This document shows positions 8,786 to 28,119 of a stretch of DNA of 36,335 bases, in pieces. The DNA comes from Candidatus Thalassospirochaeta sargassi (GTDB lineage: Bacteria > Spirochaetota > Spirochaetia > UBA9216): NCBI GenBank assembly GCA_028532855.1, contig JAQQAL010000032.1, positions 1-36,335 of the forward strand, in the 5' to 3' direction. The position numbers were made by a program, and so were the translations under genes. Every line of letters starts with the position of its first letter. Position 1 is the first letter of the stretch. The notes under the pieces were generated by a model. The model worked only from the letters and a program-made list of their open reading frames with translations. It did not search any database and had not been told where the DNA came from.

Positions 8786-8786
8786 T

Positions 8787-10499
8787 TTATATCCTTGGTA
8801 TATGAACAGAAACCCGAGTACCTTCCCCCGGCGCTGATTTGAACTTAACCCCGTAATCCGGCCCGAAATATAGTTTTATTCTCTGGTTAACGGAACGCAA
8901 CCCTATCCCGACATTTTCTTCTTCCATTTCAGAAAGGTACCCATTAAGTTTTTCGACTTCAGCTGTTGAGATGCCCGGGCCGCTGTCCTCGATTCTAAAA
9001 AAAATGTCATTTTCAGAACAATCCGCGCTTATTTTAATAGTTCCCGTGTCATCCTGCTGCATTATACCATGATAGATGGAATTTTCTACAAGCGGTTGAA
9101 GAATAAGTTTTAGGGTTTTATTCTTCATTATGGTTTCAGGGATGCTGATCACCGATTCAAATTCATCTTCAAATCTAGTTTCCTGGATAACCAGGTAGTT
9201 TTTTATATGTTCTATTTCTTCTTCAATTGTTACAAGTGTCCGTCCCCGACTCAGTCCAATCCTAAGGAGGTTCGTCAAAGAGAATACCAGCCTTATAACG
9301 GCATCGTTTTGACCGGCTCTCGCAAGCCAGATAATCGATTCCAGGGTGTTGTACAGAAAATGGGGATTGATCTGTGCCTCAAGGGTTTTCATTTCTGATA
9401 TTCTAAGCTTTTCATGCTCTTCATACAGATCTTTCATGAGGGTGTTAATTTTTGCTACCATGACATTGAAACTGTTCGAAAGCATTCCTATCTCATCTTC
9501 GGTTTGAATGTCCATGTTGACGTTGAAGTTACCTGATTGAACAATCTTCATAAGCCCAGCGAGATCACGAAGCGGGCTTATTGTTCTGCTTACAAATGAC
9601 AAAGCCGCGATAAAATCAATAGCTGCAATAATCAGAATAAGGATGAAGATGGGTTTAAACATCGAGGTAACCGATGCTTCCAAAGTTTCAGGATGAATGA
9701 AGCCTTTCAATGTCCACCCAGTATAATCGATTGTGATTGAGGCCGAGAGTGCACTTTGGATTAGGGTGTCTGTATCTCTTGAATGCGTTATCTCCTGGTT
9801 TCCCGTTGTCCCAATCAGGCTTAGGTGACCTGAGCCTCCCAGGCCCTGGCTGATTATTTCATGTATGGTCTCTACTTCAATGTCGGTCAAAATAACTCCA
9901 AGTATATCTCCGCTGGACTTATCAATTATCTTTAAACCGAGGGTAATAAGCGGTTGGCCTATAGTATTTACAGTAAATGAGCCCTCGTGAGGTGAAAACC
10001 ATACTGGATTTGAACTGTAAATTATTCTCCGATACCAGGTAAAATTCTGCCAATTCTCATAAATGGGAGAAGAAAAGTTTGATTTAAACTGCATGCCGTT
10101 AGCGCCGATGACGTAAAAGCCGAAAATATCGTCTACATAGTTCTGGATGAAAGAAAGCTGATTATCTATTTCCAGTTCCTGCGAATATACTTCTGCAAGG
10201 TCTTCTGGATAATCGTTACGCAGCACAGCCTGTATCTTCGGATCATCGGCTATTCGTAGTGAATTCTGCATTGCCAGGCCGAGAAGATTGTCAAGTTCTC
10301 CTGCGTTTGCCTTTACTACCTCGCTCAGGACTGATTCAAGATTCTCTTTGATGATGTTTCCAGCAAGATAAAAATAGGTAATTCCCAGAATAAGTACTGA
10401 TGATATGGTTATTACCATTACAAGGGTGAAAATCTGACCGCCGATCGATTTTATATGAAAACGACCTTTTCCCGAATGTCGCCGGTTAGAAAGCTTCAT
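8787..10499 (-). CDS. YesM/LytS-type sensor histidine kinase
   Basis: A 570-residue membrane kinase when started at the ATG at 10499, which overlaps the stop of the upstream lipoprotein gene by 14 bases. Longer in-frame starts up to 10655 lie deep inside that gene and precede a non-membrane-like segment, so I reject them. Order: TM1 (about 22-46), an extracytoplasmic sensor domain of about 235 residues, TM2 (284-304), HAMP, a His_kinase domain with the phospho-acceptor His380 in LEAQINPHFLYNT, and a HATPase domain with VENSIYHG and DSGPGIS. Gene order lipoprotein-kinase-regulator suggests the kinase reads a sugar-bound lipoprotein. Confidence 0.93.
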   Translation of the reverse strand: MKLSNRRHSGKGRFHIKSIGGQIFTLVMVITISSVLILGITYFYLAGNIIKENLESVLSEVVKANAGELDNLLGLAMQNSLRIADDPKIQAVLRNDYPEDLAEVYSQELEIDNQLSFIQNYVDDIFGFYVIGANGMQFKSNFSSPIYENWQNFTWYRRIIYSSNPVWFSPHEGSFTVNTIGQPLITLGLKIIDKSSGDILGVILTDIEVETIHEIISQGLGGSGHLSLIGTTGNQEITHSRDTDTLIQSALSASITIDYTGWTLKGFIHPETLEASVTSMFKPIFILILIIAAIDFIAALSFVSRTISPLRDLAGLMKIVQSGNFNVNMDIQTEDEIGMLSNSFNVMVAKINTLMKDLYEEHEKLRISEMKTLEAQINPHFLYNTLESIIWLARAGQNDAVIRLVFSLTNLLRIGLSRGRTLVTIEEEIEHIKNYLVIQETRFEDEFESVISIPETIMKNKTLKLILQPLVENSIYHGIMQQDDTGTIKISADCSENDIFFRIEDSGPGISTAEVEKLNGYLSEMEEENVGIGLRSVNQRIKLYFGPDYGVKFKSAPGEGTRVSVHIPRI

Positions 10500-11475
10500 C
10501 AATATGTTCTGTCGCATTGTTGACGTCAAACAGCCTTTCTTTAACAATAATTTTATGCGGAACGGTTTTTCCGAGTTCATTTCGCATAATTGCAGCAAAC
10601 ACCTGTTCTGCAAGATAAGGAGTACATTCAACAGTAGCTCCCAGTTCTCCCGCAATAACTGATTTTAGAGCGTCTTTGCTGCCGTCAATTGATATTACCA
10701 GAACATCCTCACCGGGTTGGATGTTTGCTGCCTTAAGAGCCTGTATTGCCCCAATTGCCATCTCGTCATTATGGGCATAGACAACATTGAAATTGCGTCC
10801 GTATGACAGGATGATTTCTTCCATAACGCGCTGGCCTTTAATCCGTTCAAAGTCGGCATATGCAGATACGACTATCTCCATATTATTATACTTTTCGATT
10901 GTTTCTCTGAATCCTCTTTCCCTGTCCAATACGCATGATGCGCCTTCACGACCACGCAGCTCAATTATTTTTGCAGATCCGCCTGTGTTTTCTATGAGCC
11001 ACTCTGCCGCGGTTTTAGCTTCTTTCACGAAGTCGCCGCCGACAAAGGTCAAGAAATCTACGCCGGGAATACCGGCAACCTCTCGATCCAGAGTTATTAG
11101 TGGAATCCCGGCTTCTCTGCATGCATTTAATGCATTATCCCATCCTTCATATATGAGGGGTGCCAATACGATATAGTCTACTTTTCTTCCGATCAGGCTG
11201 ATTACATCAGTTATCTGTTTTTCTTGAGAACTTTCGCCATCAAGGACTATCAGTTTTATCCCCAAATCATCGGCTTTGCGTTTCAAATCATTAGTTTCCG
11301 CAACCCGCCATGGGTTTATATGGTTCATCTGGGAAAAGCCAACTACGAGGTTATCGGATTCCGATTGGCTGTTGTCTAGGGCCGGATCATAGTTGTTGAG
11401 TACATTCCCATTTTTTTGAGTGCAGGCCGATAGCAGGATTATCAGTATAAATAATGGATATATTAGTTTCTTCAT
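10486..11475 (-). CDS. Sugar-binding lipoprotein of the sensing cassette (YtfQ-like)
   Basis: A 329-residue periplasmic-binding-protein-like lipoprotein: MKKLIYPLFILIILLSAC gives a signal peptide and lipobox with lipidated Cys18. The body is the type-1 sugar-binding fold and is closely similar to the transporter protein encoded divergently at 11630 (shared patterns: VGFSQ, RVAETN/RWAETE, DRxRGF/DRKKGF, VYAHNDEMAIGAIQAL/VYCHNDDMAIGAIQAI, SIDG). It has no adjacent permease on its own strand; instead it heads a kinase-regulator operon. A known parallel is XylFII-LytS in clostridia, where a xylose-binding protein activates a kinase. Its role as co-sensor is inference. Confidence 0.92.
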   Translation of the reverse strand: MKKLIYPLFILIILLSACTQKNGNVLNNYDPALDNSQSESDNLVVGFSQMNHINPWRVAETNDLKRKADDLGIKLIVLDGESSQEKQITDVISLIGRKVDYIVLAPLIYEGWDNALNACREAGIPLITLDREVAGIPGVDFLTFVGGDFVKEAKTAAEWLIENTGGSAKIIELRGREGASCVLDRERGFRETIEKYNNMEIVVSAYADFERIKGQRVMEEIILSYGRNFNVVYAHNDEMAIGAIQALKAANIQPGEDVLVISIDGSKDALKSVIAGELGATVECTPYLAEQVFAAIMRNELGKTVPHKIIVKERLFDVNNATEHIDEAF

Positions 11476-11629: not shown

Positions 11630-12595
11630 ATGAAGAAACGAAGTGTATTTTTAGTAGCTTTATTGGTTCTCGCCATAGTTGGTGGGACAGTATTCGCAGG
11701 TGGCCAGCAGGACGCTGGAGCTGACAGCCCTAAGGTTGTTGGGTTTTCACAGTGCGACAGCCAGCAGGCATGGCGCTGGGCTGAAACAGAATCAGTACAG
11801 GGTGAAGCAGCAGTAAGAGGCTATGAGCTTAAATATAATGATGCACAGGCTGTTCAGGCCAACCAGATTGCAGCAGTAAGATCTTTCATCGCACAGGGCG
11901 TTGACGGAATTATTCTTGCTCCCCAGGTTATGACTGGTTTTGGTCCTGTCCTGCAGGAAGCAAAAGATGCAGGCATTCCTGTTGTTCTCGTAGACAGACT
12001 TGTTGCTGAAGACGAAGATATGTACTACACCTTCATCGGTTCCGACTTTGTATGGGAAGGTGAAAGAATGGCTGAAATCGTTGTTGAAGAGACCGGTGGA
12101 AAGGCAAGAATTGCCGAGCTGCAAGGAACTCCGGGTGCAGACCCCACCATCGACAGAAAGAAAGGTTTTGAAAACATCATCAATGATTACCCCGATATGA
12201 ACATCGTCCTCTCACAGACCGGTGATTTCAACAGAACAAAGGGTAAAGAAGTAATGGAAGCTTTCCTTAAAGCAGAAGGCGAAAACATCGATGTAGTTTA
12301 CTGTCACAATGATGATATGGCTATCGGTGCTATCCAGGCTATCAAAGAATACGGAAAAGACCCCGGTAAGGACATCCTTGTTTACTCAATTGACGGTATC
12401 AAAGACGCTTTCCAGGCAATGGTTGATGGTGACCTGAATGCGGTTGTTGAGTGTACTCCGCTGCTTGGACCCCAGGCTTACGACGCTCTCGAAGCTGCAT
12501 GGGCAGGCGAAGTTCTTCCGAAATGGGTTATGTCTGAAGACGGTATCTTCCTCCAGAAAGATGCTGCGTCAATTATCGACAGTAGAAAGTACTAA
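11630..12595 (+). CDS. ytfQ: Sugar ABC transporter substrate-binding protein (YtfQ-like)
   Basis: A 321-residue periplasmic binding protein. The longest frame begins at 11420, but the ATG at 11630 has GGGAGG (11616-11621) upstream and gives a proper signal peptide (MKKRSVFLVALLVLAIVGG, cleavage near FAGGQQ). The mature protein matches the E. coli YtfQ pattern throughout: VGFSQCDSQQAWRWAETE, QANQIAAVRSFIAQGVDGI, ELQGTPGADPTIDRKKGF, HNDDMAIGAIQAIKE. YtfQ binds galactofuranose, so a furanose or related sugar is the best guess here, but pocket residues were not compared. It is the first gene of the transporter operon and is probably controlled by the divergent sensing cassette. Confidence 0.93.
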   Translation: MKKRSVFLVALLVLAIVGGTVFAGGQQDAGADSPKVVGFSQCDSQQAWRWAETESVQGEAAVRGYELKYNDAQAVQANQIAAVRSFIAQGVDGIILAPQVMTGFGPVLQEAKDAGIPVVLVDRLVAEDEDMYYTFIGSDFVWEGERMAEIVVEETGGKARIAELQGTPGADPTIDRKKGFENIINDYPDMNIVLSQTGDFNRTKGKEVMEAFLKAEGENIDVVYCHNDDMAIGAIQAIKEYGKDPGKDILVYSIDGIKDAFQAMVDGDLNAVVECTPLLGPQAYDALEAAWAGEVLPKWVMSEDGIFLQKDAASIIDSRKY

Positions 12596-12610: not shown

Positions 12611-14119
12611 ATGAGTGAAAAACTCCTGGAGGCAAAGGGTGTCAGCAAGACATTCCCAGGTGTACGAGCTCTCTCAAATGTGGATTTCGCCCTTGGCAGG
12701 GGCGAAATTCATGGTTTAATGGGGGAGAATGGTGCAGGAAAATCTACACTTATTAAGGCTATCACCGGAGTATTCCCCCGAGATGAGGGCGATATTTTTT
12801 TAGACGGTGAAGTCATACATCCCCACTCTCCAATGGATGCAGAGGCTCTGGGCATAAGTACCGTGTATCAGGAAGTGAATCTTCTTCCCAATCTCTCGGT
12901 GGCCGAAAATCTTATCATAGGCAGGCAGCCGATGAAGAGGGGCTGCATAGACTGGAAAACAATCAATAATGATGCCATAAAAATACTCCAAAAATTTGAC
13001 ATCAATATTGATGTAACCGAACTGCTTGGAAGCTATTCAATAGCAATACAGCAGATGGTTGCAATTGCACGTGCGCTTGAACTCGATTCAAAACTGCTTA
13101 TTCTTGATGAACCGACTTCAAGTTTGAATCTCGACGAGGTACAGAAGCTTTTTATACAGATGAGGCGCCTTAAAGAAGAAGGGCAGTCAATAATCTTTGT
13201 TACTCACTTTCTTGATCAGGTGTTTGAGATTACCGACAAGATTACCGTTCTTCGTAACGGAGAATATGTCGGAGAATATAACACGGCAGATCTCACGAAG
13301 CTTGATCTTATATCTAAGTTGATGGGTAAGGCTCTGGATGAGCTTAAAGAGTTTGAACATATCGCAGAAAATAAAGTTGATGAAGACGCAGAAGCTCTTC
13401 TGTGTACTGACGGCTCAGGAAAAGCCGGATATCTCAATCCTTTTAATATCTATATCAATAAAGGTGATGTTGTAGGGCTTGCAGGCCTCCTCGGCTCGGG
13501 ACGTTCAGAAATTGCCAACATGCTTTTCGGTATTGTAAAACCCGATAAGGGAAGCATGTCGATCAGAAACAAAAAAATAAAGATCAGCAGTCCTGCACAG
13601 GCTCTGAAAAATCATATCGCACTCTGTCCGGAAGACAGAAAGAACGAGGGGATAATCGCAGGGCTTTCAGTTAAGGAAAATATAGTCCTTGCGCTGCAGG
13701 TCAAACAGGGCTGGTTGAAAAATATCAATACGAGAAAGCAGAATGAACTAGCTCGGAAATACATTGATATGCTTGATATAAAAACTCCGTCGGTTGATCA
13801 GGCGATTGAAAACCTTTCGGGCGGAAATCAGCAGAAGGTAATAGTTGCACGATGGCTTGCTACAAATCCAGAGCTGCTTATTGTCGACGAACCCACCCGG
13901 GGTATCGATGTCGGTGCGAAAACCGAGATTCAGAAGCTGATTGTCCAGCTTGCTCAGGACGGAATGGGAGTCCTGTTTATATCTTCAGAAATTGAAGAGG
14001 TTGTTCGCTGTTCCAACCGTGTCTATGTTCTGCAGGAACGCTCCGTGGTCGGAGAGCTGGCAGGAAGTGATATTGATGAACACAAGATTATGCATACTAT
14101 TGCCGGGAAAGGGGAGTAA
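12611..14119 (+). CDS. ytfR: Sugar ABC transporter ATP-binding protein (YtfR/RbsA family)
   Basis: A 502-residue protein with two fused ABC ATPase domains, the layout of the CUT2 sugar importers. Domain 1: Walker A GENGAGKST (about 38-46), a degenerate signature in IAIQQMVAIARALE, Walker B LLILDEPTS. Domain 2: degenerate Walker A GLLGSGRSE, a canonical signature LSGGNQQKV, Walker B LLIVDEPTRGIDVGAK. Such asymmetry is usual for the family. It follows the binding-protein gene by 15 bases with a GGA-rich ribosome site and precedes the two permease genes. Confidence 0.95.
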   Translation: MSEKLLEAKGVSKTFPGVRALSNVDFALGRGEIHGLMGENGAGKSTLIKAITGVFPRDEGDIFLDGEVIHPHSPMDAEALGISTVYQEVNLLPNLSVAENLIIGRQPMKRGCIDWKTINNDAIKILQKFDINIDVTELLGSYSIAIQQMVAIARALELDSKLLILDEPTSSLNLDEVQKLFIQMRRLKEEGQSIIFVTHFLDQVFEITDKITVLRNGEYVGEYNTADLTKLDLISKLMGKALDELKEFEHIAENKVDEDAEALLCTDGSGKAGYLNPFNIYINKGDVVGLAGLLGSGRSEIANMLFGIVKPDKGSMSIRNKKIKISSPAQALKNHIALCPEDRKNEGIIAGLSVKENIVLALQVKQGWLKNINTRKQNELARKYIDMLDIKTPSVDQAIENLSGGNQQKVIVARWLATNPELLIVDEPTRGIDVGAKTEIQKLIVQLAQDGMGVLFISSEIEEVVRCSNRVYVLQERSVVGELAGSDIDEHKIMHTIAGKGE

Positions 14120-14121
14120 GA

Positions 14122-15171
14122 ATGTTAAAAGGAAAACAAATCCCGAAGATCATCTGGCCGCTCCTGGCCCTTGCTGCAATTCTGTTATTTAATCTGCTTT
14201 TTACAGATCACTTTTTCAGAATTACAATCAGGGACGGTCATTTATTCGGAAGTTTAATTGATATATTAAGACGATGTGCGCCAACTATGATAATGGCAAT
14301 TGCAATGACCTATGTTATTGCCACCGGTGGAATTGATATTTCAGTAGGTTCGGTACTGGCTATTTCGGGTTCAATTGCATCGCTGGTAGTATGGGGTGGC
14401 AGCACAAACTATCTAGCAGGCGACGACGAGGCGATTTACGCTGCTGTAGGGCTTATCATCCTTATCCCCCTGCTGGCATCGCTGGCTCTCGGGGCATTCA
14501 ATGGGCTTATGGTATCGGTTGTAGGTCTTCAGCCGTTTATTGCGACGCTGATTTTGATGACCGCTGGTCGCGGTATTGCTCAGCTGCTTACAGGCGGAAA
14601 GGTTCTCAACTTTAGTCATGCAGGCTTTGAGTTTGTTGGGCGCGGATACTTTCTGGGTATTCCCTTTCCATTTATACTTGCGATGCTTGTTCTGTTGCTG
14701 GGATTAGCTATTACCAAGCTCACGCCTATGGGGCTGTATATCCAGGCTGTCGGTGGAAACAGATCAGCAAGTCAATATTCGGGAATCAATACAAAATTTG
14801 TGATTTTATTTGTATACATATTTTCAGGTTTTGCTGCAGGACTTGCAGGACTTGTAATGACTGCCGATATCACAGGTGCTGATGCGGGGTTCATGGGGCT
14901 CTATATGGAGCTTGATGCAATTCTTGCGGTTGTTATTGGAGGTACTCCAATGGAGGGCGGTAAATACAACCTTAAGGGTACAGTTGTAGGTGTGCTGATC
15001 ATTCAGACCCTTACTACAACTATACTGACTCGTGGAGTTCCGCCTGAATATACAACAATAGTAAAAGCGATTGTTGTTCTTGCGGTTCTGATTATCCAGT
15101 CAAGGAAGGTTCGTGAGCTTATCGAACACCGGACCATGATAAGAGCTGCAAAGGAGGCTGAGAGCGTATGA
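14122..15171 (+). CDS. ytfT: Sugar ABC transporter permease (YtfT-like)
   Basis: A 349-residue inner-membrane permease of the BPD_transp_2 (CUT2) family with about eight to ten hydrophobic helices. Family motifs: ATGGIDISVGSVLAISG in the N-terminal half and AVGGNRSASQYSGI in the later cytoplasmic loop, then DAILAVVIGGTPMEGG. The start lies two bases after the ATPase stop and the stop overlaps the next permease start (ATGA), so the three are coupled. Two different permeases in one operon is the hallmark of the YtfQRT-YjfF arrangement. Confidence 0.94.
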   Translation: MLKGKQIPKIIWPLLALAAILLFNLLFTDHFFRITIRDGHLFGSLIDILRRCAPTMIMAIAMTYVIATGGIDISVGSVLAISGSIASLVVWGGSTNYLAGDDEAIYAAVGLIILIPLLASLALGAFNGLMVSVVGLQPFIATLILMTAGRGIAQLLTGGKVLNFSHAGFEFVGRGYFLGIPFPFILAMLVLLLGLAITKLTPMGLYIQAVGGNRSASQYSGINTKFVILFVYIFSGFAAGLAGLVMTADITGADAGFMGLYMELDAILAVVIGGTPMEGGKYNLKGTVVGVLIIQTLTTTILTRGVPPEYTTIVKAIVVLAVLIIQSRKVRELIEHRTMIRAAKEAESV

Positions 15172-16157
15172 AACTCCTGGAAAAATTAGGTATATCAAGA
15201 CGGTCAATGCCTTTAATTGCGACCTTTGTTGTATTTATTGCACTTTATGTTTACGGCGGTATCAGCTACAGAAATTTCTTCTCAGCGAGGGTTTTCTTCA
15301 ACCTGCTGACTGATAATGCTGTTCTCGGTATTACCGCTGTGGGTATGACCTTTGTTATTATCTCAGGCGGTATCGACTTATCTGTCGGTGCAGTAATATC
15401 GACGACTGCTATGGCAGTTGCAGTAATGACCCAGGCAGGAGTGCCAAACGGATTAGTTATACCGATTGCACTGCTTTACGGAACAGTTTTGGGCTTTTTG
15501 ATGGGGTTTATCATAGAATACTTTAAAGCCCCGCCGTTTATAGTTACGCTTGCCGGAATGTTCTTTTCACGCGGATTCGGATATGTTCTGAGTCTCAGCT
15601 CGGTTCCAATCGTGTACGAGTTTTATGCAAAGGCTTCAGCCTTTGGTCTAAAGATTGGGAACGGCAGGTTCACTATTCCGGGGATAGCCTTGATTGTTGT
15701 AATAATTGCAGCTATTTTCCTTTCCCGTTCAACCAAGTTCGGGAGAAATATTTATGCAATCGGCGGAAGTGAGCAGTCTGCTGTATTTATGGGTCTACCT
15801 GTTTTCAGGGTCAAGGTTCTCGTTTATACACTGAGCGGATTCTGTGCTTCACTTGCAGGGTTCATATATACCTTTTATACGCTGTCAGGCTACGGCCTTG
15901 CAGGAATAGGGCTTGAGATGGATGCAATTGCATCCGCTGTAATCGGCGGTACGCTGATGACCGGCGGATACGGGACTATATTCGGTACCCTTATTGGTAC
16001 GCTTATCCAGGGTCTGATAAAAACAATAATTTCGTTTAACGGTCAGTTTTCAGTTTACTGGATACGCCTTTTCACCGGCGGTATGCTGCTTCTGTTTATC
16101 CTCCTTCAGAAAGCATTTGTTGCAGGTACTGCCGGAATGAAGAAGGCTGAAGGATAA
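15168..16157 (+). CDS. yjfF: Sugar ABC transporter permease (YjfF-like)
   Basis: A 329-residue second CUT2-family permease. Signature segments are ISGGIDLSVGAVIS, AIGGSEQSAVFMGL and DAIASAVIGGTLMTGG. It overlaps the first permease by four bases. The heterodimeric permease pair supports assignment to the galactofuranose-type transporter group rather than the homodimeric ribose type. An SDR gene follows after nine bases, which ties the transporter to a catabolic step. Confidence 0.94.
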   Translation: MKLLEKLGISRRSMPLIATFVVFIALYVYGGISYRNFFSARVFFNLLTDNAVLGITAVGMTFVIISGGIDLSVGAVISTTAMAVAVMTQAGVPNGLVIPIALLYGTVLGFLMGFIIEYFKAPPFIVTLAGMFFSRGFGYVLSLSSVPIVYEFYAKASAFGLKIGNGRFTIPGIALIVVIIAAIFLSRSTKFGRNIYAIGGSEQSAVFMGLPVFRVKVLVYTLSGFCASLAGFIYTFYTLSGYGLAGIGLEMDAIASAVIGGTLMTGGYGTIFGTLIGTLIQGLIKTIISFNGQFSVYWIRLFTGGMLLLFILLQKAFVAGTAGMKKAEG

Positions 16158-16166: not shown

Positions 16167-16940
16167 ATGAATATAAAATGGGATTTCACGGGTCGGAACT
16201 ATGTTGTTACAGGTTCCACCCGCGGAATCGGGTTTGAAATTGCCATGCAGCTTATGGCTGCAGGGGCAGCCGTCGGAATAACCGGCAGAGACAGCGGCAG
16301 GCTTGCAGAAATCGAAGAGGACTGTCGCGACAAAGGCTATAAGTGTTTTACCGCCGGGGCCGATCTTACGAGAGCCTCCGATTTAACGACCCTGGCGGAT
16401 TCTTTTATAAACAGGATGGGCTGCATCGACGGCCTTGTAAACAACGCCGGTATCAACATTCTTGAACCGGCTGACGGTCTCAGCCTTGAAGCTGTTGAAA
16501 AGGTGATTAAGACAAACCTTACTGCACCGATGATTTTGACAAGTCTTTTCACGGCCGGGATGAAAAAGCAGGGTGGAGGCAGCGTTGTCAATGTTGCGAG
16601 TCTTTCCAGTAAAACTGCTTTCATGAACCACTCTGCCTATTGCGCCTCGAAGGAGGGGCTGCTAGGGTATACGAAGGTCGCTGCAATGGAGCTGGGCTCT
16701 CATAATATAAGGGTTAATTCCGTTGGACCTACAGTTGTACTAACCGAACTTGGAAAACGCGACTGGAACGCTGATCCGGAAAAAAGAAAGCACATGGAGG
16801 GCTTCATTCCTCTTAACAGGTTTGTTGAACCTGAAGAGGTTGCCTCGGCCGTGCTTTTTCTTTTATCGGATGAGGCGGCAATGATCAGTGGAGAGTTTAT
16901 GCTGATTGACGGCGGCTATATGGCCGGAAAGGGTATTTGA
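16167..16940 (+). CDS. Short-chain dehydrogenase/reductase, sugar or polyol type
   Basis: A 257-residue classical SDR. The NAD(P) loop is TGSTRGIG (15-22), then NNAG (92-95) and the catalytic Ser147 region with Tyr158-x3-Lys162 in SAYCASK. The C-terminal part (NSVGPTVVLTELGKRDW, then FIPLNRFVEPEEVASAVLFL) resembles L-xylulose reductase and related polyol or ketose reductases. It probably oxidises or reduces a hydroxyl of the imported compound. It lies nine bases after the permease and overlaps the MFS gene, so it belongs to the transport and GRE operon. The substrate is not determined. Confidence 0.92.
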   Translation: MNIKWDFTGRNYVVTGSTRGIGFEIAMQLMAAGAAVGITGRDSGRLAEIEEDCRDKGYKCFTAGADLTRASDLTTLADSFINRMGCIDGLVNNAGINILEPADGLSLEAVEKVIKTNLTAPMILTSLFTAGMKKQGGGSVVNVASLSSKTAFMNHSAYCASKEGLLGYTKVAAMELGSHNIRVNSVGPTVVLTELGKRDWNADPEKRKHMEGFIPLNRFVEPEEVASAVLFLLSDEAAMISGEFMLIDGGYMAGKGI

Positions 16941-18157
16941 CGGTCAGAGTTATGAACAGTTCTGTGAATAGTTCAGGCAGACACATCCGTAGCAGCACCA
17001 TCGGGCTTGCCGCAGCAGCGTTCATATCCTTTTTTATCTTTGGGTTCTCGGACGTTCTGAAAGGAACCGCAATTCCCGAAATAATTTCAACCACCTCAAT
17101 CGGTTACGGGGGCGGCGGTGCGCTGATAGGTTTTACCTACTTCGGGTTCTTCGCCGGTACGCTGGGTTCGGTTCTCCTGTTGAAAAAATACCCCGCGCCA
17201 AAACTGCTGATCTTTGCGGCTGTATCGGCATGCGCCGGCCTCTGGTTGTTCAGCATTGCAGCAGTCCCCGCGATGATGTTTGCATCAGCTTTTTTAATCG
17301 GAATCGGGGGCGGTTTGATTGATGTTACAGCGAATCTTACCATAAGGATGACGGCCGACAGCAGCAGAATCGGCCACAGACTAAACCAGCTGGCTTTTTT
17401 TCATGGTTTCGGTGCCATTTTATCGCCGTTGTTTGCAGGCATTGTGCTCTCTTTGACCGCGCAGTGGCGACGAATATATTTTTTTGCAGCACTTCTGACG
17501 GTATTGTTGGTTATTGTGATATTTGTCTTAATAAGAAAAGCTGATATACGCCAGTTGAAGGAGGAGACTCCTGAAAAATTAACTATACACCCGGGGGTTA
17601 TTTTGCTTGGCGGAGCTTTGTTTTTTTATATGACTCTTGAAGCGGGAATTTCCGGCTGGATGGTTGAATACGGAAAAAACTCTGTCGGCATTGGAGAACG
17701 TGAAGCCTTATTTTATCTGTCTCTATTTTTCATACTGCTGACTGCCGGAAGGCTTCTTAGCAGCTTTTATGTGGACAGATTCGGTCTGTACAGATCAATC
17801 CTGCTTAATTTTATCGTTATTTTTGTTTTTGTTGCCGGTGGTGTAACCTTCAAATTCCTTTTTGTACTCATTCCTTGCTCAGGACTGTTTATGGCCCCAA
17901 TATTCCCCACCACTGTAGCGCTTATTTCAAATGAACTTGATAGTTCTAATATCAGGATTCTGGGGTTCTTTTTTGCTATAGCGGGTTTAGGCGGTATCTT
18001 CGGACCCTGGATGATAGGACTGCTCGCAGCAGAATTCTCTTTACAGACGGGGCTTACTCTACTCATGGCTTTTACAGTCTGTGCCGTTATTATTTGTGGA
18101 TTATACACATTTACCGGCAGAATGCGGAAACATAAGGGGAAAGAGATTCAACCTTAA
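16937..18157 (+). CDS. MFS transporter (FHS/sugar-type)
   Basis: A protein of about 406 residues with some twelve membrane helices. The start is uncertain: TTG at 16937 overlaps the SDR stop by four bases and has AAAGGG close upstream, while an ATG at 16952 would shorten it by five residues. Family-like features include GFTYFGFFAGTLGSVLL, LIGIGGGLIDVTANLTI and FFHGFGAILSPLFAGI, similar to the fucose/glucose-type sugar carriers. The presence of a second carrier in an operon that already has an ABC importer suggests either import of a related compound or export of a product (inference). Confidence 0.88.
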   Translation: MTVRVMNSSVNSSGRHIRSSTIGLAAAAFISFFIFGFSDVLKGTAIPEIISTTSIGYGGGGALIGFTYFGFFAGTLGSVLLLKKYPAPKLLIFAAVSACAGLWLFSIAAVPAMMFASAFLIGIGGGLIDVTANLTIRMTADSSRIGHRLNQLAFFHGFGAILSPLFAGIVLSLTAQWRRIYFFAALLTVLLVIVIFVLIRKADIRQLKEETPEKLTIHPGVILLGGALFFYMTLEAGISGWMVEYGKNSVGIGEREALFYLSLFFILLTAGRLLSSFYVDRFGLYRSILLNFIVIFVFVAGGVTFKFLFVLIPCSGLFMAPIFPTTVALISNELDSSNIRILGFFFAIAGLGGIFGPWMIGLLAAEFSLQTGLTLLMAFTVCAVIICGLYTFTGRMRKHKGKEIQP

Positions 18158-18201
18158 GACAAAAATAGTCCATTTACGGCAGTTTATTGAGGCATTATAG
18201 T

Positions 18202-19107
18202 ATGTATGGAAAAATGAAAGGTATAATATTTAATATACAGCGATTCAGTACTAAAGACGGTCCCGGCATAAGAACCACAGTATTTCTCAAAGGCTGCAAT
18301 GTGAATTGCGCCTGGTGTCATAATCCGGAATCTATTGATGGTAATCAGATGCTGCGATTTGATTCGAAGCTATGCATCAGCTGCGGACGCTGCGCAGTAG
18401 CATGTCCATCCGGAGCAACCGAAATGGTTGACGGCAGAAGGGTTTATTATCTTGATAAATGCACCCTTTGCGGAGACTGTGTTTCAGCCTGCGGTGCCGA
18501 CGCTCTTGAGATAGTTGGGGAAAATTATACAGCAGAGGAGCTATATAATATAATTATTAAGGATGAAGATTTTTATAAGGAATCCGGCGGCGGGGTCACC
18601 TTTTCCGGAGGTGAGCCACTCCTTCAGCAGGAGTTCCTTATTGAAATGCTCAGACTCTGCAAGGCTGTGGGGATTCATACGGCACTTGATACGGCCTTGA
18701 ATATTGAATGGGACAGGGTCGAAGCCGTACTGCCCTGGGTTGATTTGGTTCTGCTTGATATTAAGGGTATGGACAGCAGGAAACATTTTCAGAACACAGG
18801 CGTATCTAACGAATTGATTCATAAAAATGCTGTTAAACTGGCGTATATGGGGGTCCCCATCATAGTCAGAATGCCCGTTGTAAAAGAGCTTAATGATTCA
18901 ATCGAAGAGCTTGAAGCAGCTGCTGATTTTATGAGGGCCTGGCCAAACCTCAAGGGGGTTGAAATCCTTCCTTATCACAGCCTGGGCGTCGATAAATCTT
19001 TAGAATATGAGGCTTTGGAGGCTCAGAAGAAATTTAAAGCCCCCGACAGTGATTTTATAGACAAAGCCCGTGAGCTGTTTACGGCTTCGGGGATAAAAAT
19101 TCTATAG
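18202..19107 (+). CDS. Glycyl radical enzyme activating enzyme (radical SAM)
   Basis: A 301-residue protein. A TTG at 18187 is in frame, but TTGAGG there serves better as a ribosome site for the ATG at 18202. The SAM-binding [4Fe-4S] motif is CNVNCAWCHNPES with Cys32, Cys36 and Cys39, preceded by the activase pattern STKDGPGIRTTVFLKG. Two extra ferredoxin clusters follow (Cys58/61/64/68 and Cys87/90/93/97), as in activases of non-PFL GREs. SGGEPLLQQEF is the GGEP motif binding SAM. It installs the glycyl radical on the partner encoded 12 bases downstream. An in-frame neighbour this close makes the pairing secure. Confidence 0.95.
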   Translation: MYGKMKGIIFNIQRFSTKDGPGIRTTVFLKGCNVNCAWCHNPESIDGNQMLRFDSKLCISCGRCAVACPSGATEMVDGRRVYYLDKCTLCGDCVSACGADALEIVGENYTAEELYNIIIKDEDFYKESGGGVTFSGGEPLLQQEFLIEMLRLCKAVGIHTALDTALNIEWDRVEAVLPWVDLVLLDIKGMDSRKHFQNTGVSNELIHKNAVKLAYMGVPIIVRMPVVKELNDSIEELEAAADFMRAWPNLKGVEILPYHSLGVDKSLEYEALEAQKKFKAPDSDFIDKARELFTASGIKIL

Positions 19108-19119
19108 CAGGAGTTGGTT

Positions 19120-21426
19120 ATGTTACCTGAATATGTAGAGAAATCCATTGATCAATGGTTTAAAAAAAGCGATGAAGCAACCTTTTTTGAAAGAATTGAA
19201 CTGCAGGAAGAAGCTGTTAAAAAATATTATGATAAACCCTACGCTGTTCGCTACGGTAAGGTTCTAAACTATATTCTTGAACGGATGACTGTTGTTATCA
19301 ACGAAGGCGAAAAAATAGCCGGAAGTGTAAAGGAGATTATTCCTGATGATGAGCAGCGTGAGTGGGCAGAAAATCTAAGCTGTGAATGGTGGGATGATGT
19401 ATCAGAGGAGGAAAAACAGCGGAGGATCATGTTTTATTATTCGCCGGGCTGGATTAAACGCAGGAATCCCCTTCTGTTCACATTCGGGCATTTATCCTTT
19501 GACTGGGAGGCAATCATCAACAAGGGGCTTGGATGGCATGCGGAGAGGGCCCAGGGGCTGATTGATTCAGGTGAGTTTGCAGACGATCAGGATAAGATTG
19601 ATTTTCTTACCGGGGCTGTCGAATGTTATAAGGCTCAAACAGTTCTTATAAACCGGTATGCTGATGAGGCCGGGAAGGCCGGTAATGATGCTCTATCAGC
19701 CGTCTGCCGCAAGATAGCCTGCGAACCCGCAGAAACTCTGTATGAAGCGTTGCAGCTTATCTGGTTTGTTGTTCTCATTTCACAGAAGGTCGCCGGATGC
19801 GGTGTTTTCTGCTTTGACAGAATGGATCAGTACCTGCTACCGTATTTTGAAAAAGATATTGCAGAAGGCCGGCTTACCGAAGAGGAAGCATTCGGGCTGA
19901 TTGTTGAGTTTTTTAACAAAAATAATGAAATACTTGATCACGGCGACCATATGTCGCAGGAATCTGATGTCGTCAAGAATAACCTTGAGGTCACCTATGA
20001 TGATCCAAACTATATAATAATTGCAGGTCTATTAAGCAAGGGGGTATCCGGCGTTAACAAACTCTCACACATGATGATCAGGGCGCAGCATGAGCTTGGC
20101 CTTCGAAACCCGTTTGTTGTTGTACGATGGCATGAGGGGATAGATCCTGAGTTCTGGAGTGAAGTCTGCGATTCCATGAGGAGTAATTCTACTGTGGTTG
20201 TCTATAACGATGAGACCATGATTCCTGCACTTCTTGAGTTTGGAATTGATGAAGAGGATGTCTACGGTTACGGTTTTTACGGTTGTAATGACCCTTTGAT
20301 TCCAAAGAAAGAGGGAGGGCTGCGTCAGCTGTGGGTGAACCTTGTGTGGCCTTTTGAGCTTGCATTAAACGGAGGCAGTGCGTTTTGTGTCGGTGCAGGG
20401 GATTGGGTGCATGACCCTTCGGCTAATTTCGACATGCGTGACAGGCTTATAGGGCTTATGTCCGGCGTCTACAGCGGTGATACCGAAGGTTACAAAGAGC
20501 CTGAGTCAATGGAAGATTTTATCGCCGGGTATAAGAAACAGCTTCGCTTTCTGCTTCTGCAGTATATGGAAAAGATGGAAGAGGATTACCTCAAAGAACA
20601 GGAGTACAGCAGGGGCCGTATCAGGATTGAGGATCTCTTCCTGCAGGGCACCATCGAAAATGCAACCAACTGGATTGCCGGCGGAACAAAGTACCATAAA
20701 ATTACAATGCAGGGCAGCGGTTTAGCCACGGCGGTGGATTCACTCGCAGCTATTGATCAGGCTGTGTTCAAAGAGAAAAAATACAGTCTTGATGAAATCC
20801 GGCAGGCGCTTCGAACAGACTTTGCTGACCGTGAAGACCTTAGAATATATCTCGACTCGCTGCCGAAGTTCGGCAATGATGTTGAGGAGGTTGATAAGTA
20901 TGCGACAGTGGTTACTAATGCCTTCTGCGACGTTGTAGCTGAGATGAACGAAAAGAGAACAGGGCTCTATACATATATGCCGACTCTGTCCACCGACAGG
21001 GACTTTACCGGTATGGGGGCATGCCTCGCCGCCACAGCCGACGGCCGCCGCGCCGGCGAACAGATATCAGAGAATCAGTCCCCATACATGGGGGCTGATC
21101 ACAGCGGGGTAACAGCATTGCTGAACTCAGTTTCAAAAGTGCCGTTTCACAGGATAACCGGAGGCCCGCTGAATGTGATGCTGCATCCCTCTACCATCGA
21201 AGGTGATGATGGTCTTGCCAAGCTGACGGCGCTGTTCAGTGTTTTTATGAAACGCGGTGGAATGCAGCTGCAGCTGAATGTTGTAGGCCGGGAAGAGCTC
21301 CTTGACGCCCAGAAGAAACCTGAACAGCATAAAAACCTCTGTGTACGGGTAACAGGTTATTCGGCATACTTTGTACAAATGGGCAAGATAGCCCAGGAAG
21401 AACTGATAAATCGGACAGTGAATTGA
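19120..21426 (+). CDS. Glycyl radical enzyme of unassigned substrate
   Basis: A 768-residue protein (ATG at 19120 with AGGAG at 19109-19113; a TTG at 19114 is less likely). The radical-site motif RVTGYSAYFVQMG holds Gly746, close to the C-terminus as required. The thiyl cysteine is Cys389 in GFYGCNDPLIP. Most eliminating GREs (diol, choline, hydroxyproline, isethionate types) have GCxE; here it is GCND, so the usual general-base Glu is Asp. There is no CC pair, so it is not a pyruvate formate-lyase. The C-terminal TADGRRAGEQISENQSP block is typical. Neighbours are its activase, a sugar importer, an SDR and an AllA-like protein; no microcompartment shell genes are in the window. Likely a dehydratase or C-X lyase on a sugar-derived compound. 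Confidence 0.95.
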   Translation: MLPEYVEKSIDQWFKKSDEATFFERIELQEEAVKKYYDKPYAVRYGKVLNYILERMTVVINEGEKIAGSVKEIIPDDEQREWAENLSCEWWDDVSEEEKQRRIMFYYSPGWIKRRNPLLFTFGHLSFDWEAIINKGLGWHAERAQGLIDSGEFADDQDKIDFLTGAVECYKAQTVLINRYADEAGKAGNDALSAVCRKIACEPAETLYEALQLIWFVVLISQKVAGCGVFCFDRMDQYLLPYFEKDIAEGRLTEEEAFGLIVEFFNKNNEILDHGDHMSQESDVVKNNLEVTYDDPNYIIIAGLLSKGVSGVNKLSHMMIRAQHELGLRNPFVVVRWHEGIDPEFWSEVCDSMRSNSTVVVYNDETMIPALLEFGIDEEDVYGYGFYGCNDPLIPKKEGGLRQLWVNLVWPFELALNGGSAFCVGAGDWVHDPSANFDMRDRLIGLMSGVYSGDTEGYKEPESMEDFIAGYKKQLRFLLLQYMEKMEEDYLKEQEYSRGRIRIEDLFLQGTIENATNWIAGGTKYHKITMQGSGLATAVDSLAAIDQAVFKEKKYSLDEIRQALRTDFADREDLRIYLDSLPKFGNDVEEVDKYATVVTNAFCDVVAEMNEKRTGLYTYMPTLSTDRDFTGMGACLAATADGRRAGEQISENQSPYMGADHSGVTALLNSVSKVPFHRITGGPLNVMLHPSTIEGDDGLAKLTALFSVFMKRGGMQLQLNVVGREELLDAQKKPEQHKNLCVRVTGYSAYFVQMGKIAQEELINRTVN

Positions 21427-21436
21427 GGAGAAATAA

Positions 21437-21910
21437 ATGCAGATAGAAAAATTAACAGCTGAATCTTTTAAGGATTTCGGTCAGGTTCTTACTATGGCCC
21501 AGGTTCCGAAGGTTACGGATGACAAGGAATTCGACTGGTATGATACTGCAGGCGGAATTGAGCTTAATGAGAAATGCTGCACCGGCATGCTTGTCTGCAG
21601 ACCGCGACCGAAGAAAGTTGTTAAGATGGAATGCCATACTAAAACCTCCGAGGTGCTTGTAGCTTTAAACGGTGATACAGTTTTTGCGGCTGCACCTGCG
21701 GGTGACAGTCTGGAAAATAATGATAATGTAAAAGCCTTCCTTCTAAGGCAGGGTACTTCTGTTGTAATGAAAACAGCTACATGGCACTGGATTCCTTTTC
21801 CGATGGCTGAAGAAGACGCCAGGATTATGGTTCTCTTCCGCGACGGCACCGGTGCTGATGACCTGAACTTCAAAGATCTATGCTGTGCAGTCAGTATTGA
21901 AGATGTTTAG
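21437..21910 (+). CDS. Ureidoglycolate lyase (AllA)-family cupin-like protein
   Basis: A 157-residue protein. The pattern RPRPKKVVKMECHTKTSEVL, followed by VALNGDTVFAAAP, FLLRQGTSVVMKTATWHW and MVLFRDGTG, matches the AllA fold, in which ureidoglycolate is cleaved to glyoxylate and urea. The expected His is present in ECHTKTSE and TWHWIPF. No purine or allantoin genes are nearby, so the true role is probably a lyase, isomerase or hydrolase step on a product of the GRE. It starts ten bases after the GRE stop with GAGGAG upstream, so it is in the same operon. Confidence 0.82.
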   Translation: MQIEKLTAESFKDFGQVLTMAQVPKVTDDKEFDWYDTAGGIELNEKCCTGMLVCRPRPKKVVKMECHTKTSEVLVALNGDTVFAAAPAGDSLENNDNVKAFLLRQGTSVVMKTATWHWIPFPMAEEDARIMVLFRDGTGADDLNFKDLCCAVSIEDV

Positions 21911-21919
21911 AAGACAGCC

Positions 21920-22228
21920 TTGCTCAGACATATTGTACTTTGAAAGGTCGCAGACCAGATCACCGCGGCCGGGGTCGATGAAGTATTCGAAATACTCAGC
22001 ATCGCTGAAGTTAAAAATATCCGGTATTATCAGCTTTGGTGCCGGATAAACTGCAGCACTTAGAGCCTGAATAAGGGCTATACCCATGTTTTTATGATGG
22101 ATTTTTCAGACAGCGCAGCCCGGGATGCCTACCTGCCTCACCCCGAGCACCAGGCTGTTCAGCCTCCGCTAATGGATATTCTCGCTGATGATGAGGACAA
22201 GATTCTCGTGATTGATTTCGAGTTTTAA
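21920..22228 (+). pseudogene. Decayed Dabb (stress-responsive A/B barrel) gene
   Basis: A frame of 103 codons, the usual Dabb length, runs without shifts but is interrupted by two nonsense codons: TGA at 21941 and TAG at 22061. Between them the protein is clear: LRHIVL-stop-KVADQITAAGVDEVFEIL at the N-terminus, INCST-stop-SLNKGYTHVFMMDF, then ARDAYLPHPEHQAV and ILVIDFEF at the end. The HPEHQ and GYTHVF patterns are diagnostic of Dabb. The stops fit single changes from TGG (Trp) and GAG (Glu); the start is TTG rather than ATG. It lies nine bases after the AllA-like gene, so it was once the last gene of the GRE operon. Confidence 0.82.
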
Positions 22229-22334
22229 TCATTATTCCTTTTACAAATAATAAAGGATCTTCAATCATAACATGCTTAAGAATTTTAATAAAAAATAAAA
22301 AAAGAAGCGAAATTGTAATATTCGTTGATAAATA

Positions 22335-22463
22335 GAAGAATACCGGGAGGGCCAGTTCATTTTAACTGGTTCAAGTGCCAGAAAGCTGAAGCGAACTGGA
22401 ATAAATTTTCTTGGTGGCAGGGCTCTTCTGAAAAAATGTATCCTTTTACCGCAGCAGAAATAG
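22335..22463 (+). pseudogene. Remnant of an AAA_14/DUF4143 ATPase
   Basis: A frame of 42 residues reads EEYREGQFILTGSSARKLKR and then TGINFLGGRALLKK, which is the sensor-1 region pattern (FILTGSSARKL, then GRAL) of the AAA_14/DUF4143 ATPase family. Just before it, in another frame, SEIVIFVDK resembles the Walker B strand, so a frameshift separates them. Family members have about 400 residues, so most of the gene is gone. Confidence 0.6.
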
Positions 22464-22485
22464 GGGAAGCGTTCAATCTTTAAAA

Positions 22486-22626: not shown

Positions 22627-22639
22627 GCTGAACAGGAAT

Positions 22640-25713: not shown

Positions 25714-25730
25714 AATCAACAGAGGTGTCT

Positions 25731-26954
25731 ATGAAAGAGAAATCAGTAGTTTCAATAGTAAAAGGCGATATCACTGAATCTCCTGAAAACTATACAAGAA
25801 AAGACCTTGAAACCGTTAAGGCAATGGTTTTAAAATCGCTGGATCTGATTGGCGGATTGGACAAGGTTGTCGGAAAAGCAAAAAATGTAATTGTTAAACC
25901 GAATCTCGTTGAGGTTCCTTTTGAATCAACAGGAGGATCAGTTGTAACGGATCCCAGGGTGCTTGAGGCTGTGATCGAGATTCTTAAGGAATATGGAGTA
26001 GAAAAAGTTGTCGTTGCAGAAGGTAAATCGGTTAACCTGAAACACATCAGCTCCGGCCCCAAGCAGGCGTTTGAAGATGCCGGTCTTGGAGAAATTATCA
26101 GGCGTGCAGGCGGAGAAACCCTTGGCTGGGATGAAGAGCCCTTTGTTTCGGTGCCTAATCCGAATGGTGAGGTTCTTGCTGAAGTCAACGTGCCGAAATC
26201 AATTCTTGATGCTGATCTGTTCATAAATCTGCCTAAGCTTAAAACCCACGGTCAGACTGAGGTCACCTGCGGAATCAAGGCGCTACAGGGAGTCTATTCG
26301 GTAGAAGACAAAGTCCAGTTCCATACAGAAGCGTTTCCCTGGAAGATGGTTGAAATGCTCAGGGTTGCAAAACCCCATCTGACTATTGTCGACGGTCTTA
26401 TTTGTGGTGAGCATTTCGGACCTATTTATACCGAACCGGTAAAGATGGATCTGGTTGTTTCATCTGAAGATGTTGTTTCAATTGATGCCGTAATCTCCGA
26501 GATTATGGGAATAAAGGCCTACGAAGTGCCCATTACACGTCTGGCAGATACTGAAGGAATCGGAAACGGCAAGATGGAAAATATAGAGGTGAGAGGCGAA
26601 TCTGTTGACTCAGTGATGAAGTATTTTGACAGAGCCTTTCTCTGGAACCCGATTGGATATCATAAAAATATAAGAATTTTTGCCGGTGATGCAGGGCGTT
26701 TTACCCTGGCTCAACTTGGCGCGACAGTTAGAAGGCTTGAACTTGAGGGTCTTATTGACGACCTTGAAGAGATCTGCGTCATTGTTGGACACGGGGCTCC
26801 GATACCGGTCCGGGATTATAAAAATGTCTATGTAATAGGCGATAGTGCTGCTGATCACCCATGGAGAGACAGGGCGTTAGGTTTTATCCCGGGTTCTCCC
26901 CCGCTGCCGTCCGTACAGATAGTTGAAGCGTTTAAAACACACTTAAAGAAATAG
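25731..26954 (+). CDS. DUF362 domain protein
   Basis: A 407-residue protein. The ATG at 25731 has AGAGG (25721-25725) before it; a GTG at 25725 would add two residues. The DUF362 pattern is clear: NVIVKPNLVEVPFESTGGSV, TDPRVLEAVIEILKEYGVEK, then FINLPKLKTHGQTEVTCGIK. DUF362 proteins often accompany iron-sulfur or radical enzymes; unlike many, no ferredoxin Cys motif is present here. Function is unknown. It precedes the enolase-superfamily gene by 16 bases and shares its promoter and probable GntR control. Confidence 0.85.
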   Translation: MKEKSVVSIVKGDITESPENYTRKDLETVKAMVLKSLDLIGGLDKVVGKAKNVIVKPNLVEVPFESTGGSVVTDPRVLEAVIEILKEYGVEKVVVAEGKSVNLKHISSGPKQAFEDAGLGEIIRRAGGETLGWDEEPFVSVPNPNGEVLAEVNVPKSILDADLFINLPKLKTHGQTEVTCGIKALQGVYSVEDKVQFHTEAFPWKMVEMLRVAKPHLTIVDGLICGEHFGPIYTEPVKMDLVVSSEDVVSIDAVISEIMGIKAYEVPITRLADTEGIGNGKMENIEVRGESVDSVMKYFDRAFLWNPIGYHKNIRIFAGDAGRFTLAQLGATVRRLELEGLIDDLEEICVIVGHGAPIPVRDYKNVYVIGDSAADHPWRDRALGFIPGSPPLPSVQIVEAFKTHLKK

Positions 26955-26970
26955 GAAGGAAGAGAAAGTT

Positions 26971-28119
26971 ATGAAAATAAAGAGCGTAGAAGCTTATCCC
27001 GTATCATTTCCCCTCGAGGTTCCATCTCAGGATGCAACAGGTGTCTGGCATGACTGGAGCACTGTGCTTGTAAAGATTACAGCAGAAGACGGAAGCTTCG
27101 GCTGGGGTGAAATAGGCCCTCTTCATGGGGGTGGTATAGCCGTTTTTGTTGCTATCGTAGAACACAAGCTTAAGGATATCCTGATTGGGGAAGACTGTTT
27201 TGATAGAGAACGACTCTACCAGAAGATGCTCGGCCGCGGTACAAGCTCATACGCATTCGGTCAGAAGGGGGCTATAGTAACTGCAATTGCAGGTATTGAT
27301 ATTGCCCTCTGGGATCTTGCAGGCAAGCTGCTTGACACTCCTGTTTACAAGATGCTTGGCGGTGCCACCCACGCAAAAATTCCGGCTTATGCAAGCGGGT
27401 TTTTCGGCAAAGAGGGTAGACCCCTTACCCCGGCGGAATGTGCTGATGAAGCAAAGAGCTATGCCGACCAGGGGTTCAAGGGCGTTAAGATGAAGGTGGG
27501 GTATGGAAGCGAGTCGGATCTTGAAAACCTGGCTGCAGTAAGAAAGGCCCTCGGTCCGGACCTTGGCATCATGGTTGATGCAAATCAGGGGTTCAGTTAC
27601 CACAGTGTTATGAAGATTGCTGGACGTATGGCAGAATTTGACCTGACTTTCTTTGAGGAACCGCTTCCGATTAATGATCTGGATGGTATGGCAGAGCTTG
27701 TTAAGGCAGTTGATTTCCCTATTGCCGCAGGTGAGAATTACTATACACGCTATGAGTTCCGAGAAGTTATTTCAAAACGAGCTGTAAATATTGTACAGCC
27801 TGATATTATTCATGCCGGCGGTATCACTGAAACCCGTAAGATAGCCGACATGGCGAGTGCCTGGAACATCCCCCTCGCACCGCATATTCATGCGACTGTC
27901 GGTACTGCGGCAAGTATTCACCTGCTTACCTCAACTCCTAACACCCTTGCGGCAGAATATATTACGAGCGGCGGATCATTCAGACTCAGACGCGAACTCT
28001 TCGGTGATGAGTACATTGCGGAAGACGGATGGGTTTCAGCATCCGATAAGCCCGGCCTTGGAATTGAAATCAGACCTGAGGCGCTCGAGAAATACTATCC
28101 GAAAATCCTGAAGAAATAA
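26971..28119 (+). CDS. Enolase-superfamily enzyme, mandelate racemase-like
   Basis: A 382-residue barrel enzyme that would abstract the proton alpha to a carboxylate with a bound Mg ion. The catalytic Lys motif is K173-M-K175 (GVKMKVGYG), metal ligands are Asp203 (VDANQG), Glu229 or 230 (FFEEPL) and Glu255 (AAGEN), and the His side is Asp278 and His305 (LAPHIHAT). The arrangement is that of mandelate racemase or acid-sugar dehydratases. Acid-sugar dehydration would yield a 2-keto-3-deoxy acid, but other activities are possible. It is the second gene of the GntR-controlled plus-strand unit. Confidence 0.9.
   Translation: MKIKSVEAYPVSFPLEVPSQDATGVWHDWSTVLVKITAEDGSFGWGEIGPLHGGGIAVFVAIVEHKLKDILIGEDCFDRERLYQKMLGRGTSSYAFGQKGAIVTAIAGIDIALWDLAGKLLDTPVYKMLGGATHAKIPAYASGFFGKEGRPLTPAECADEAKSYADQGFKGVKMKVGYGSESDLENLAAVRKALGPDLGIMVDANQGFSYHSVMKIAGRMAEFDLTFFEEPLPINDLDGMAELVKAVDFPIAAGENYYTRYEFREVISKRAVNIVQPDIIHAGGITETRKIADMASAWNIPLAPHIHATVGTAASIHLLTSTPNTLAAEYITSGGSFRLRRELFGDEYIAEDGWVSASDKPGLGIEIRPEALEKYYPKILKK

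Follow-up and report, generated by a model that had tools for sequence, protein, structure and literature searches.

A Putative New Subfamily of Glycyl Radical Enzymes with Aspartate at the Position of the Catalytic Glutamate in Spirochaetota

The Locus and Its Genes

The window, that is, the whole stretch of DNA that was analyzed, is one complete contig (C32, 36,335 bases) of a 3.8-Mb spirochete genome. Nine of its genes are arranged head to tail from 11630 to 21910 with gaps of -4 to 29 nt, in the order YtfQ, YtfR, YtfT, YjfF, SDR1, MFS, activase, glycyl radical enzyme (GRE), and AllA-like (table 1). The GRE, the eighth gene of this series, starts with an ATG at 19120, six bases after an AGGAG (19109–19113); its stop codon ends at 21426, and the activase gene ends 12 nt upstream of the GRE start. 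The sequence-only reading had placed a GRE with the Cys loop GFYGCNDPLIP at these positions, in the company of a sugar ABC importer, an SDR, an MFS transporter, and an AllA-like protein; Pfam matches, the ATG/AGGAG start, and an alignment with glycerol dehydratase (1r8w) confirm the coordinates and the motif, and all of the named neighbors are present, the AllA-like protein by its PF04115 domain.

The ABC importer appears to belong to the galactofuranose-type family, with YjfF alone passing its curated cut-off as a galactofuranose permease and the other three subunits scoring below theirs. A sensor set is encoded divergently upstream of the operon and is conserved beside it in three other genomes that encode the enzyme (G001, G389, and G568). 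On the other side of the operon, an aldehyde:ferredoxin oxidoreductase (AOR), its ThiS-like partner, a DUF362 protein, and an MR/MLE-superfamily enzyme form a block that is syntenic in G001. Between the AllA-like gene and a GntR gene (21911–22743) the window contains no intact gene; G001 has genes for a second SDR (SDR2) and a Zn-dependent dehydrogenase (Zn-ADH) there. This stretch of the window holds debris that includes a fragment resembling the P-loop of an ABC ATPase, and it is likely a rearrangement scar. The operon had been set apart from the known diol, choline, hydroxyproline, isethionate, and arylacetate systems, and its gene set indeed matches none of them. We did not identify BMC shell genes (PF00936) in the window genome, on which grounds a link to the BMC-associated (GRM-type) GREs was rejected.

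Table 1. Features of the window and residues of the GRE discussed in the text
Feature	Position	Strand	Evidence or remark
Sensor set: periplasmic binding protein, histidine kinase, response regulator	7178..11475	-	Divergent, upstream of operon
YtfQ-like sugar-binding protein	11630..12595	+	NF041827, 352 bits, below cut-off of 510
YtfR-like ABC ATPase	12611..14119	+	NF041861, 686 bits, below cut-off of 850
YtfT-like permease	14122..15171	+	NF041862, 320 bits, below cut-off of 535
YjfF-like permease	15168..16157	+	NF008630, 375 bits, above cut-off of 363
SDR1, SDR-family dehydrogenase (GolD/DthD-like)	16167..16940	+	
MFS transporter	16937..18157	+	Activase lies directly downstream in every GCND locus
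GRE activase, radical SAM with ferredoxin-like Fe4S4 motifs	18187..19107	+	TIGR02494, 334.8 bits, cut-off 174
GRE, GCND subfamily, 768 aa	19120..21426	+	PF02901, 331.7 bits; PF01228, 87.4 bits (Pfam)
H124, common beta-1 substrate site	19489..19491	+	His164 of glycerol dehydratase, His160 of HypD (alignment; PMC8473560)
Thiyl (Cys) loop GFYGCNDPLIP	20272..20304	+	C389 codon 20284–20286; D391 codon 20290–20292
R402	20323..20325	+	Asp447 in glycerol dehydratase; Arg also in the ACCH sister clade
D626-R627-D628	20995..21003	+	Charged triplet specific to the GCND clade (alignment)
Glycyl radical loop RVTGY (context CVRVTGYSAYF)	21346..21360	+	G746 codon 21355–21357
AllA-like cupin	21437..21910	+	PF04115, 40.9 bits; next to the GRE in all GCND loci
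ThiS-like AOR partner	23400–23675	-	PF02597, weak
AOR	23679–25604	-	PF01314/PF02730
DUF362 protein and MR/MLE-superfamily enzyme	25725..28119	+	Syntenic with AOR in G001

Active-Site Motifs

The enzyme combines a PFL-like and a Gly_radical domain with an RVxGY loop, an active Cys loop, and a cognate radical-SAM activase, as in the GRE superfamily. The GRE eliminases have a CXE motif in the Cys loop, the Glu of which has a catalytic role (PMC8473560). This motif is absent from the GCND enzyme, and all of its orthologs have CXD instead; in a HMMER alignment, Asp391 falls exactly on the catalytic Glu in the GCVEP of glycerol dehydratase 1r8w. Among the residues that we take to form the active site of glycerol/propanediol dehydratase (His164, His281, Ser282, Glu435, and Asp447), only His164 is kept in the GCND enzyme, as H124. 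R402, which occupies the place of Asp447, may have a role in substrate binding. The charged triplet D626-R627-D628 lies in the strand where IslA has Arg678 and Phe682 and HypD has Thr645, residues whose roles have been described (PMC8473560), although this column mapping is approximate and inferred.

An AlphaFold model of the GRE built with four close sequences was discarded at a pLDDT of 40; the placement of Asp391, R402, and R627 thus follows from alignment at about 30% identity. A separate model of the AllA-like protein (score 44) was likewise set aside.

Phylogenetic Placement of the GCND Enzymes

Our maximum-likelihood tree comprises 32 GREs, including PflB, PflD, and YbiW of Escherichia coli as well as glycerol dehydratase and HplG, the last two as partial sequences (the residues shown in HMMER alignments). 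The GCND sequences are monophyletic (100/100), with a stem length of 1.36 changes per column, and do not cluster with YbiW or PflD. Their sole close sister (100/100) consists of two GREs of the genome G133 that have a PFL-like Cys loop, ACCH. Distances to CutC, HypD, IslA, HpsG, the arylacetate decarboxylases, and the succinate synthases were taken from PDB and NCBIfam scores, as these families lie outside the tree. The best PDB match is glycerol dehydratase (261 bits, about 30% identity). NCBIfam equivalog models of full-length GREs give 103–297 bits against cut-offs of about 994–1150, including the HypD, CutC, HpsG/HpfG, HPAD, and IAD models (167–297 against 1000–1150 bits), none of which is reached, and even the broad PFL2-3 subfamily model gives 363 bits against a cut-off of 678. 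The enzyme does not conform to pyruvate formate-lyase, since its Cys loop has GC rather than CC and TIGR01255 yields 103 against 994 bits.

We therefore saw no clustering with a characterized family that carries GCND, in keeping with the sequence-only reading, which had regarded the motif as setting this enzyme apart: the clade is separate, the equivalog cut-offs are missed, and identity to PDB entries is about 30%. Among the PDB and NCBIfam copies and the open-access papers searched, no characterized family is nearer than about 30% identity. On sequence grounds, the GCND GREs are best read as a new, uncharacterized subfamily.

Glycerol dehydratase (1r8w/1r9d), the B12-independent enzyme, shares the fold family, the Gly and Cys loops, and the beta-1 His with the GCND enzyme, but it has CXE rather than CXD and Asp447 rather than Arg, and the GCND locus lacks its diol/BMC context. 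YbiW and PflD likewise act on a sugar derivative (PMC12441222), but they have CXE, are only 28% identical, and form a separate clade; moreover, their pathways begin with a PTS, whereas the GCND locus has an ABC importer and sugar-acid enzymes. IslA is a precedent for a GRE that binds an anionic substrate through Arg residues (PMC8473560), but it has CXE and is distant by score (166–195 bits). A check for counterparts of its Arg189 and Arg678, the residues of sulfonate binding, found no Arg four residues before H124 and a beta-8 Arg at a nearby place that is not proven equivalent. YbiW and PflD cleave 1,5-anhydroglucitol/anhydromannitol-6-phosphate; further details of these enzymes are reportedly found in work of Ma et al. 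from 2024.

Distribution and Conservation

We searched for GCND orthologs in Spirochaetota among 98 relatives, 393 genomes of the phylum, and 395 genomes of the class (overlapping sets). The enzyme is present in six genomes of three families at about 59–82% identity: the window genome, G004, and G001, which belong to one genus; G389 and G568 of family f9; and G447 of family f26. The G001 gene is split over two contigs, the ends of which overlap by 34 residues. All six orthologs keep GCND, and the codon of Asp391 is GAC in some and GAT in others, as in synonymous turnover. For the only two pairs with an estimable dS, dN/dS values are 0.12/2.8 (window genome and G004) and 0.018/0.20 (G389 and G568). 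The GCND GRE is under strong purifying selection. Given that GCND occurs in all orthologs, that both codons are used, and that dN is far below dS, Asp391 is neither a sequencing error nor a chance substitution. The five full-length orthologs are invariant at GCND, H124, R402, D626-R627-D628, H526-K527, and G746.

We did not find relatives of the clade in viral contigs. A scan of contigs with two peptide patterns from the 34-residue overlap, which detects near identity, returned contigs of the same genus only, and a search of plasmids gave matches at about 27% identity only.

Conserved Gene Neighborhoods

The presence of partner genes was tabulated for seven genomes. The set of MFS transporter, activase, GRE, and AllA-like protein, together with SDR2, the Zn-ADH, and a UlaG-like protein of the metallo-beta-lactamase fold (a lactonase), is found in all three families; the set is visible only in part in G004, where the contig ends inside the AllA-like gene. 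SDR2 is most similar to L-sorbose reductase (3ai1, 312 bits). The upstream one of the two G001 contigs breaks off within the GRE gene; it carries genes for an IclR regulator, a KDPG aldolase, a KDG-kinase-like protein, and a galactonate dehydratase whose score exceeds the equivalog cut-off (NF010624, 642 over 311 bits). A galactonate dehydratase gene also adjoins the UlaG-like gene in G447, and in the window genome it is found with aldolase, kinase, and UlaG-like genes on contig C23, and SDR2, Zn-ADH, and an FGGY kinase are encoded on contig C44. The partner set differs between families in that G389 and G568 lack orthologs of both the AOR and the galactonate dehydratase. An assignment of the Zn-ADH as an L-galactonate or L-idonate 5-dehydrogenase was rejected, identity to LgoD and IdnD of E. 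coli being only 27–32%.

The kinase for KDG/KDGal, the aldolase, and the two dehydrogenase steps of agar catabolism (PMC10163077) and of the carrageenan DauA–DauD pathway (PMC5698469) resemble this partner set. Those pathways rely on an NAD(P)-linked dehydrogenase and a cycloisomerase of the MR/MLE superfamily, and they have neither a GRE nor an AOR. The partner genes point to galactose-type or anhydro-galactose sugar acids, not to furanoses or polyols in general, both of which the sequence-only reading had listed, along with sugar acids, as substrates to try.

The gene following the GRE shares the PF04115 domain with the ureidoglycolate lyase AllA, but it scores at most 35 bits against NCBIfam cut-offs of 212–315 and stands in a sugar context, and the AllA structure 1xsq matches it only at an E value of 0.0066. 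PF04115 occurs in 21 of the 393 Spirochaetota genomes; of the loci inspected, those in the window, G389, G133 (two), and G147 have the AllA-like gene adjoining a GRE. These contexts of GREs and sugar importers make the AllA-like protein look like a member of a sugar-catabolic cupin family rather than an allantoin enzyme. At four loci of other Spirochaetota (L083, L084, L091, and L092), AllA-like genes lie beside ribose-type sugar importers and DhaK/DhaL-like kinases, the kinases being named from a reading of their sequences.

AOR orthologs were identified in G001 and in G447 (72% identity); G003 has only a 44% relative, and no ortholog was found in G389, G568, or G002. In G447 the AOR adjoins a GH117 3,6-anhydro-alpha-L-galactosidase (3r4y, 425 bits), a GH2, and a sulfatase, a combination that recalls an exo-acting set for the use of agar or porphyran; GH117 was found in G447 only. 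For the MR/MLE enzyme that the window genome shares with G001, the best PDB match is DauB, the D-anhydrogalactonate cycloisomerase (5olc, 238 bits). Orthology to DauB was rejected because the enzyme does not conserve a Trp found in the DauB pocket, and G447 has no ortholog of the window enzyme. The absence of the AOR from G389 and G568 weakens the idea that it simply oxidizes the GRE product. Our search of the open-access literature found no papers on GREs with AOR and spirochetes.

A Candidate Reaction and Its Alternatives

Taken together, we propose that the GCND protein is a working, oxygen-sensitive GRE of an uncharacterized subfamily that serves an anaerobic pathway for an imported sugar derivative and employs Asp391 as a base, a reading that, with its mechanism included, we consider evenly balanced between right and wrong. 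The enzyme's probable role is the breakdown of a sugar derivative by a route so far undescribed; judged from its residues and neighbors, it is probably an eliminase that uses Asp as the base on an anionic galactose-type sugar derivative. The activase would generate the radical on G746, from which it would pass to C389, and the resulting thiyl would abstract a hydrogen atom from a carbinol carbon of the substrate. Asp391 would then deprotonate the neighboring hydroxyl, as the Glu does in CXE eliminases, the ketyl radical would expel a beta C–O leaving group, and C389 would quench the product radical. The product could be handed to the AllA-like protein, the pair of SDR and Zn-dehydrogenase, and a kinase and aldolase for 2-keto-3-deoxy-sugar acids. 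R402 and the D626-R627-D628 triplet suggest an anionic polyhydroxy substrate, for example a galactose-configured aldonate or anhydro-aldonate.

Given that the ACCH sister looks PFL-like, C–C cleavage or epimerization could take the place of elimination. The GRE may accordingly be a C–C lyase or a radical epimerase related to the ACCH clade, in which Asp391 is no base. The PFL-like Cys pair of the sole close sister favors this, as does R402, which is common to that clade and not to the eliminases; however, identity to the sister is only about 32%, a Gly rather than a Cys precedes C389, such that the acyl-accepting Cys of PFL is missing, and nothing in the AllA-like and sugar-acid context requires CoA chemistry. 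We consider this alternative unlikely.

A more specific proposal, in our view rather improbable, is that the GRE acts on 3,6-anhydro-L-galactonate, a compound derived from red-algal galactans of the agar type, and opens its ring by C3–O elimination to yield 2-keto-3-deoxy-L-galactonate. In this route the acid would come from the AOR, C5 inversion would fall to the Zn-ADH and SDR2, and the last steps would be those of KDG kinase and KDPG aldolase. It draws on the G447 genome, which has a GCND GRE, carries its AOR ortholog beside GH117, GH2, and sulfatase genes, and lacks an ortholog of the window MR/MLE enzyme. The agar pathway proceeds through L-AHG dehydrogenase, a cycloisomerase, L-KDGal 5-dehydrogenase (closest structure 1E3J), a 5-reductase, KDG kinase, and KDPG aldolase (PMC10163077); these enzymes fit the set of G001, with Zn-ADH and SDR2 as the pair for C5 inversion. 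The cleavage of 1,5-anhydro-sugar phosphates by YbiW and PflD (PMC12441222) provides a radical precedent on anhydro-sugars. On the other hand, GH117 was found in G447 only, no AOR ortholog accompanies the GRE in G389 and G568, and the DauB-like MR/MLE enzyme of the window genome and G001 could perform the step without a radical, although it lacks the DauB Trp. Furthermore, L-sorbose reductase is the best match of SDR2, the PDB matches of which include no KduD-type reductase, and the Zn-ADH has only low identity (27–32%) to LgoD and IdnD of E. coli. That an anaerobic route for 3,6-anhydro-galactose exists in which the AOR and the CXD GRE take the place of the NAD(P)-linked dehydrogenase and cycloisomerase that described algal degraders use is a conjecture to which we attach small weight.

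Last, it is very improbable that the enzyme is a conventional dehydratase of the diol or glycerol type that tolerates Asp in place of Glu: glycerol dehydratase is the best PDB match and its His164 is kept as H124, but His281, Ser282, and Asp447 are replaced by Gly, Val, and Arg, the tree separates the GCND clade from it, and the genome has no BMC genes and the importer is of a sugar family.

The GCND clade is of interest for two reasons. The Glu of CXE is the residue that bears the published mechanism of GRE eliminases, and a clade with Asp is a natural test of its role. Should the enzyme prove to act on a sugar acid or an anhydro-sugar, a radical step would be added to anaerobic sugar catabolism; the only sugar substrates of GREs known to us are 1,5-anhydro-hexitol phosphates.

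Other Glycyl Radical Enzymes of Spirochaetota

The only other GRE of the window genome is encoded on the minus strand of contig C49 (L057, 9639–11858; also L001). Its Cys loop reads DACQDV, with Asp at the place of the Glu and Ala before the Cys, and its glycyl radical loop reads RVWGF; the locus further encodes an activase, a sugar ABC importer, an MR/MLE enzyme, and an AOR. As this enzyme reads ACQD, Asp at the Glu position is not unique to the GCND clade, and the CXD motif alone is not diagnostic. The different geometry or substrate that the sequence-only reading took the Asp to suggest is thus no more than a possibility. The presence in one genome of two Glu-less GREs, each in a locus with a sugar importer and with MR/MLE and AOR genes close by, suggests a wider biology in anaerobic spirochetes. 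AOR genes lie near Glu-less GREs in three loci, a plain observation made without statistics.

The two ACCH GREs of G133 (L030, 8819–11167; L031, 8769–11297) form an uncharacterized clade. They share with the GCND enzymes R402, the Trp that follows it three residues later (W405), and an insertion that precedes strand beta-3, but they differ in their PFL-like Cys pair and are only about 32% identical to them. One copy lies near an AOR that is 47% identical to that of the window, a TPP-type enzyme, and a hydroxyacyl-CoA-dehydrogenase-like gene, and the other adjoins a 216-aa AllA-like gene and a sugar ABC importer.

Contig C29 of G133 encodes a further GRE homolog (L087, 5340–7766) that reads RVAAY, with Ala in place of the radical Gly, and has the Cys loop GCVT. 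It adjoins an FSA-like aldolase and an AllA-like gene and is reminiscent of the noncanonical aminoacyl radical enzymes (PMC11528403). On contig C162 of G147 (L086), two tandem GREs and an activase are found near an AllA-like gene, a DUF362 relative, two URO-D-like proteins, and a corrinoid-binding-like protein. The window itself encodes two URO-D-type proteins at 31902–33176 and 35063–36271, of which the second is assigned only by its resemblance; a DUF4432-like gene and AraC-type regulators lie nearby.
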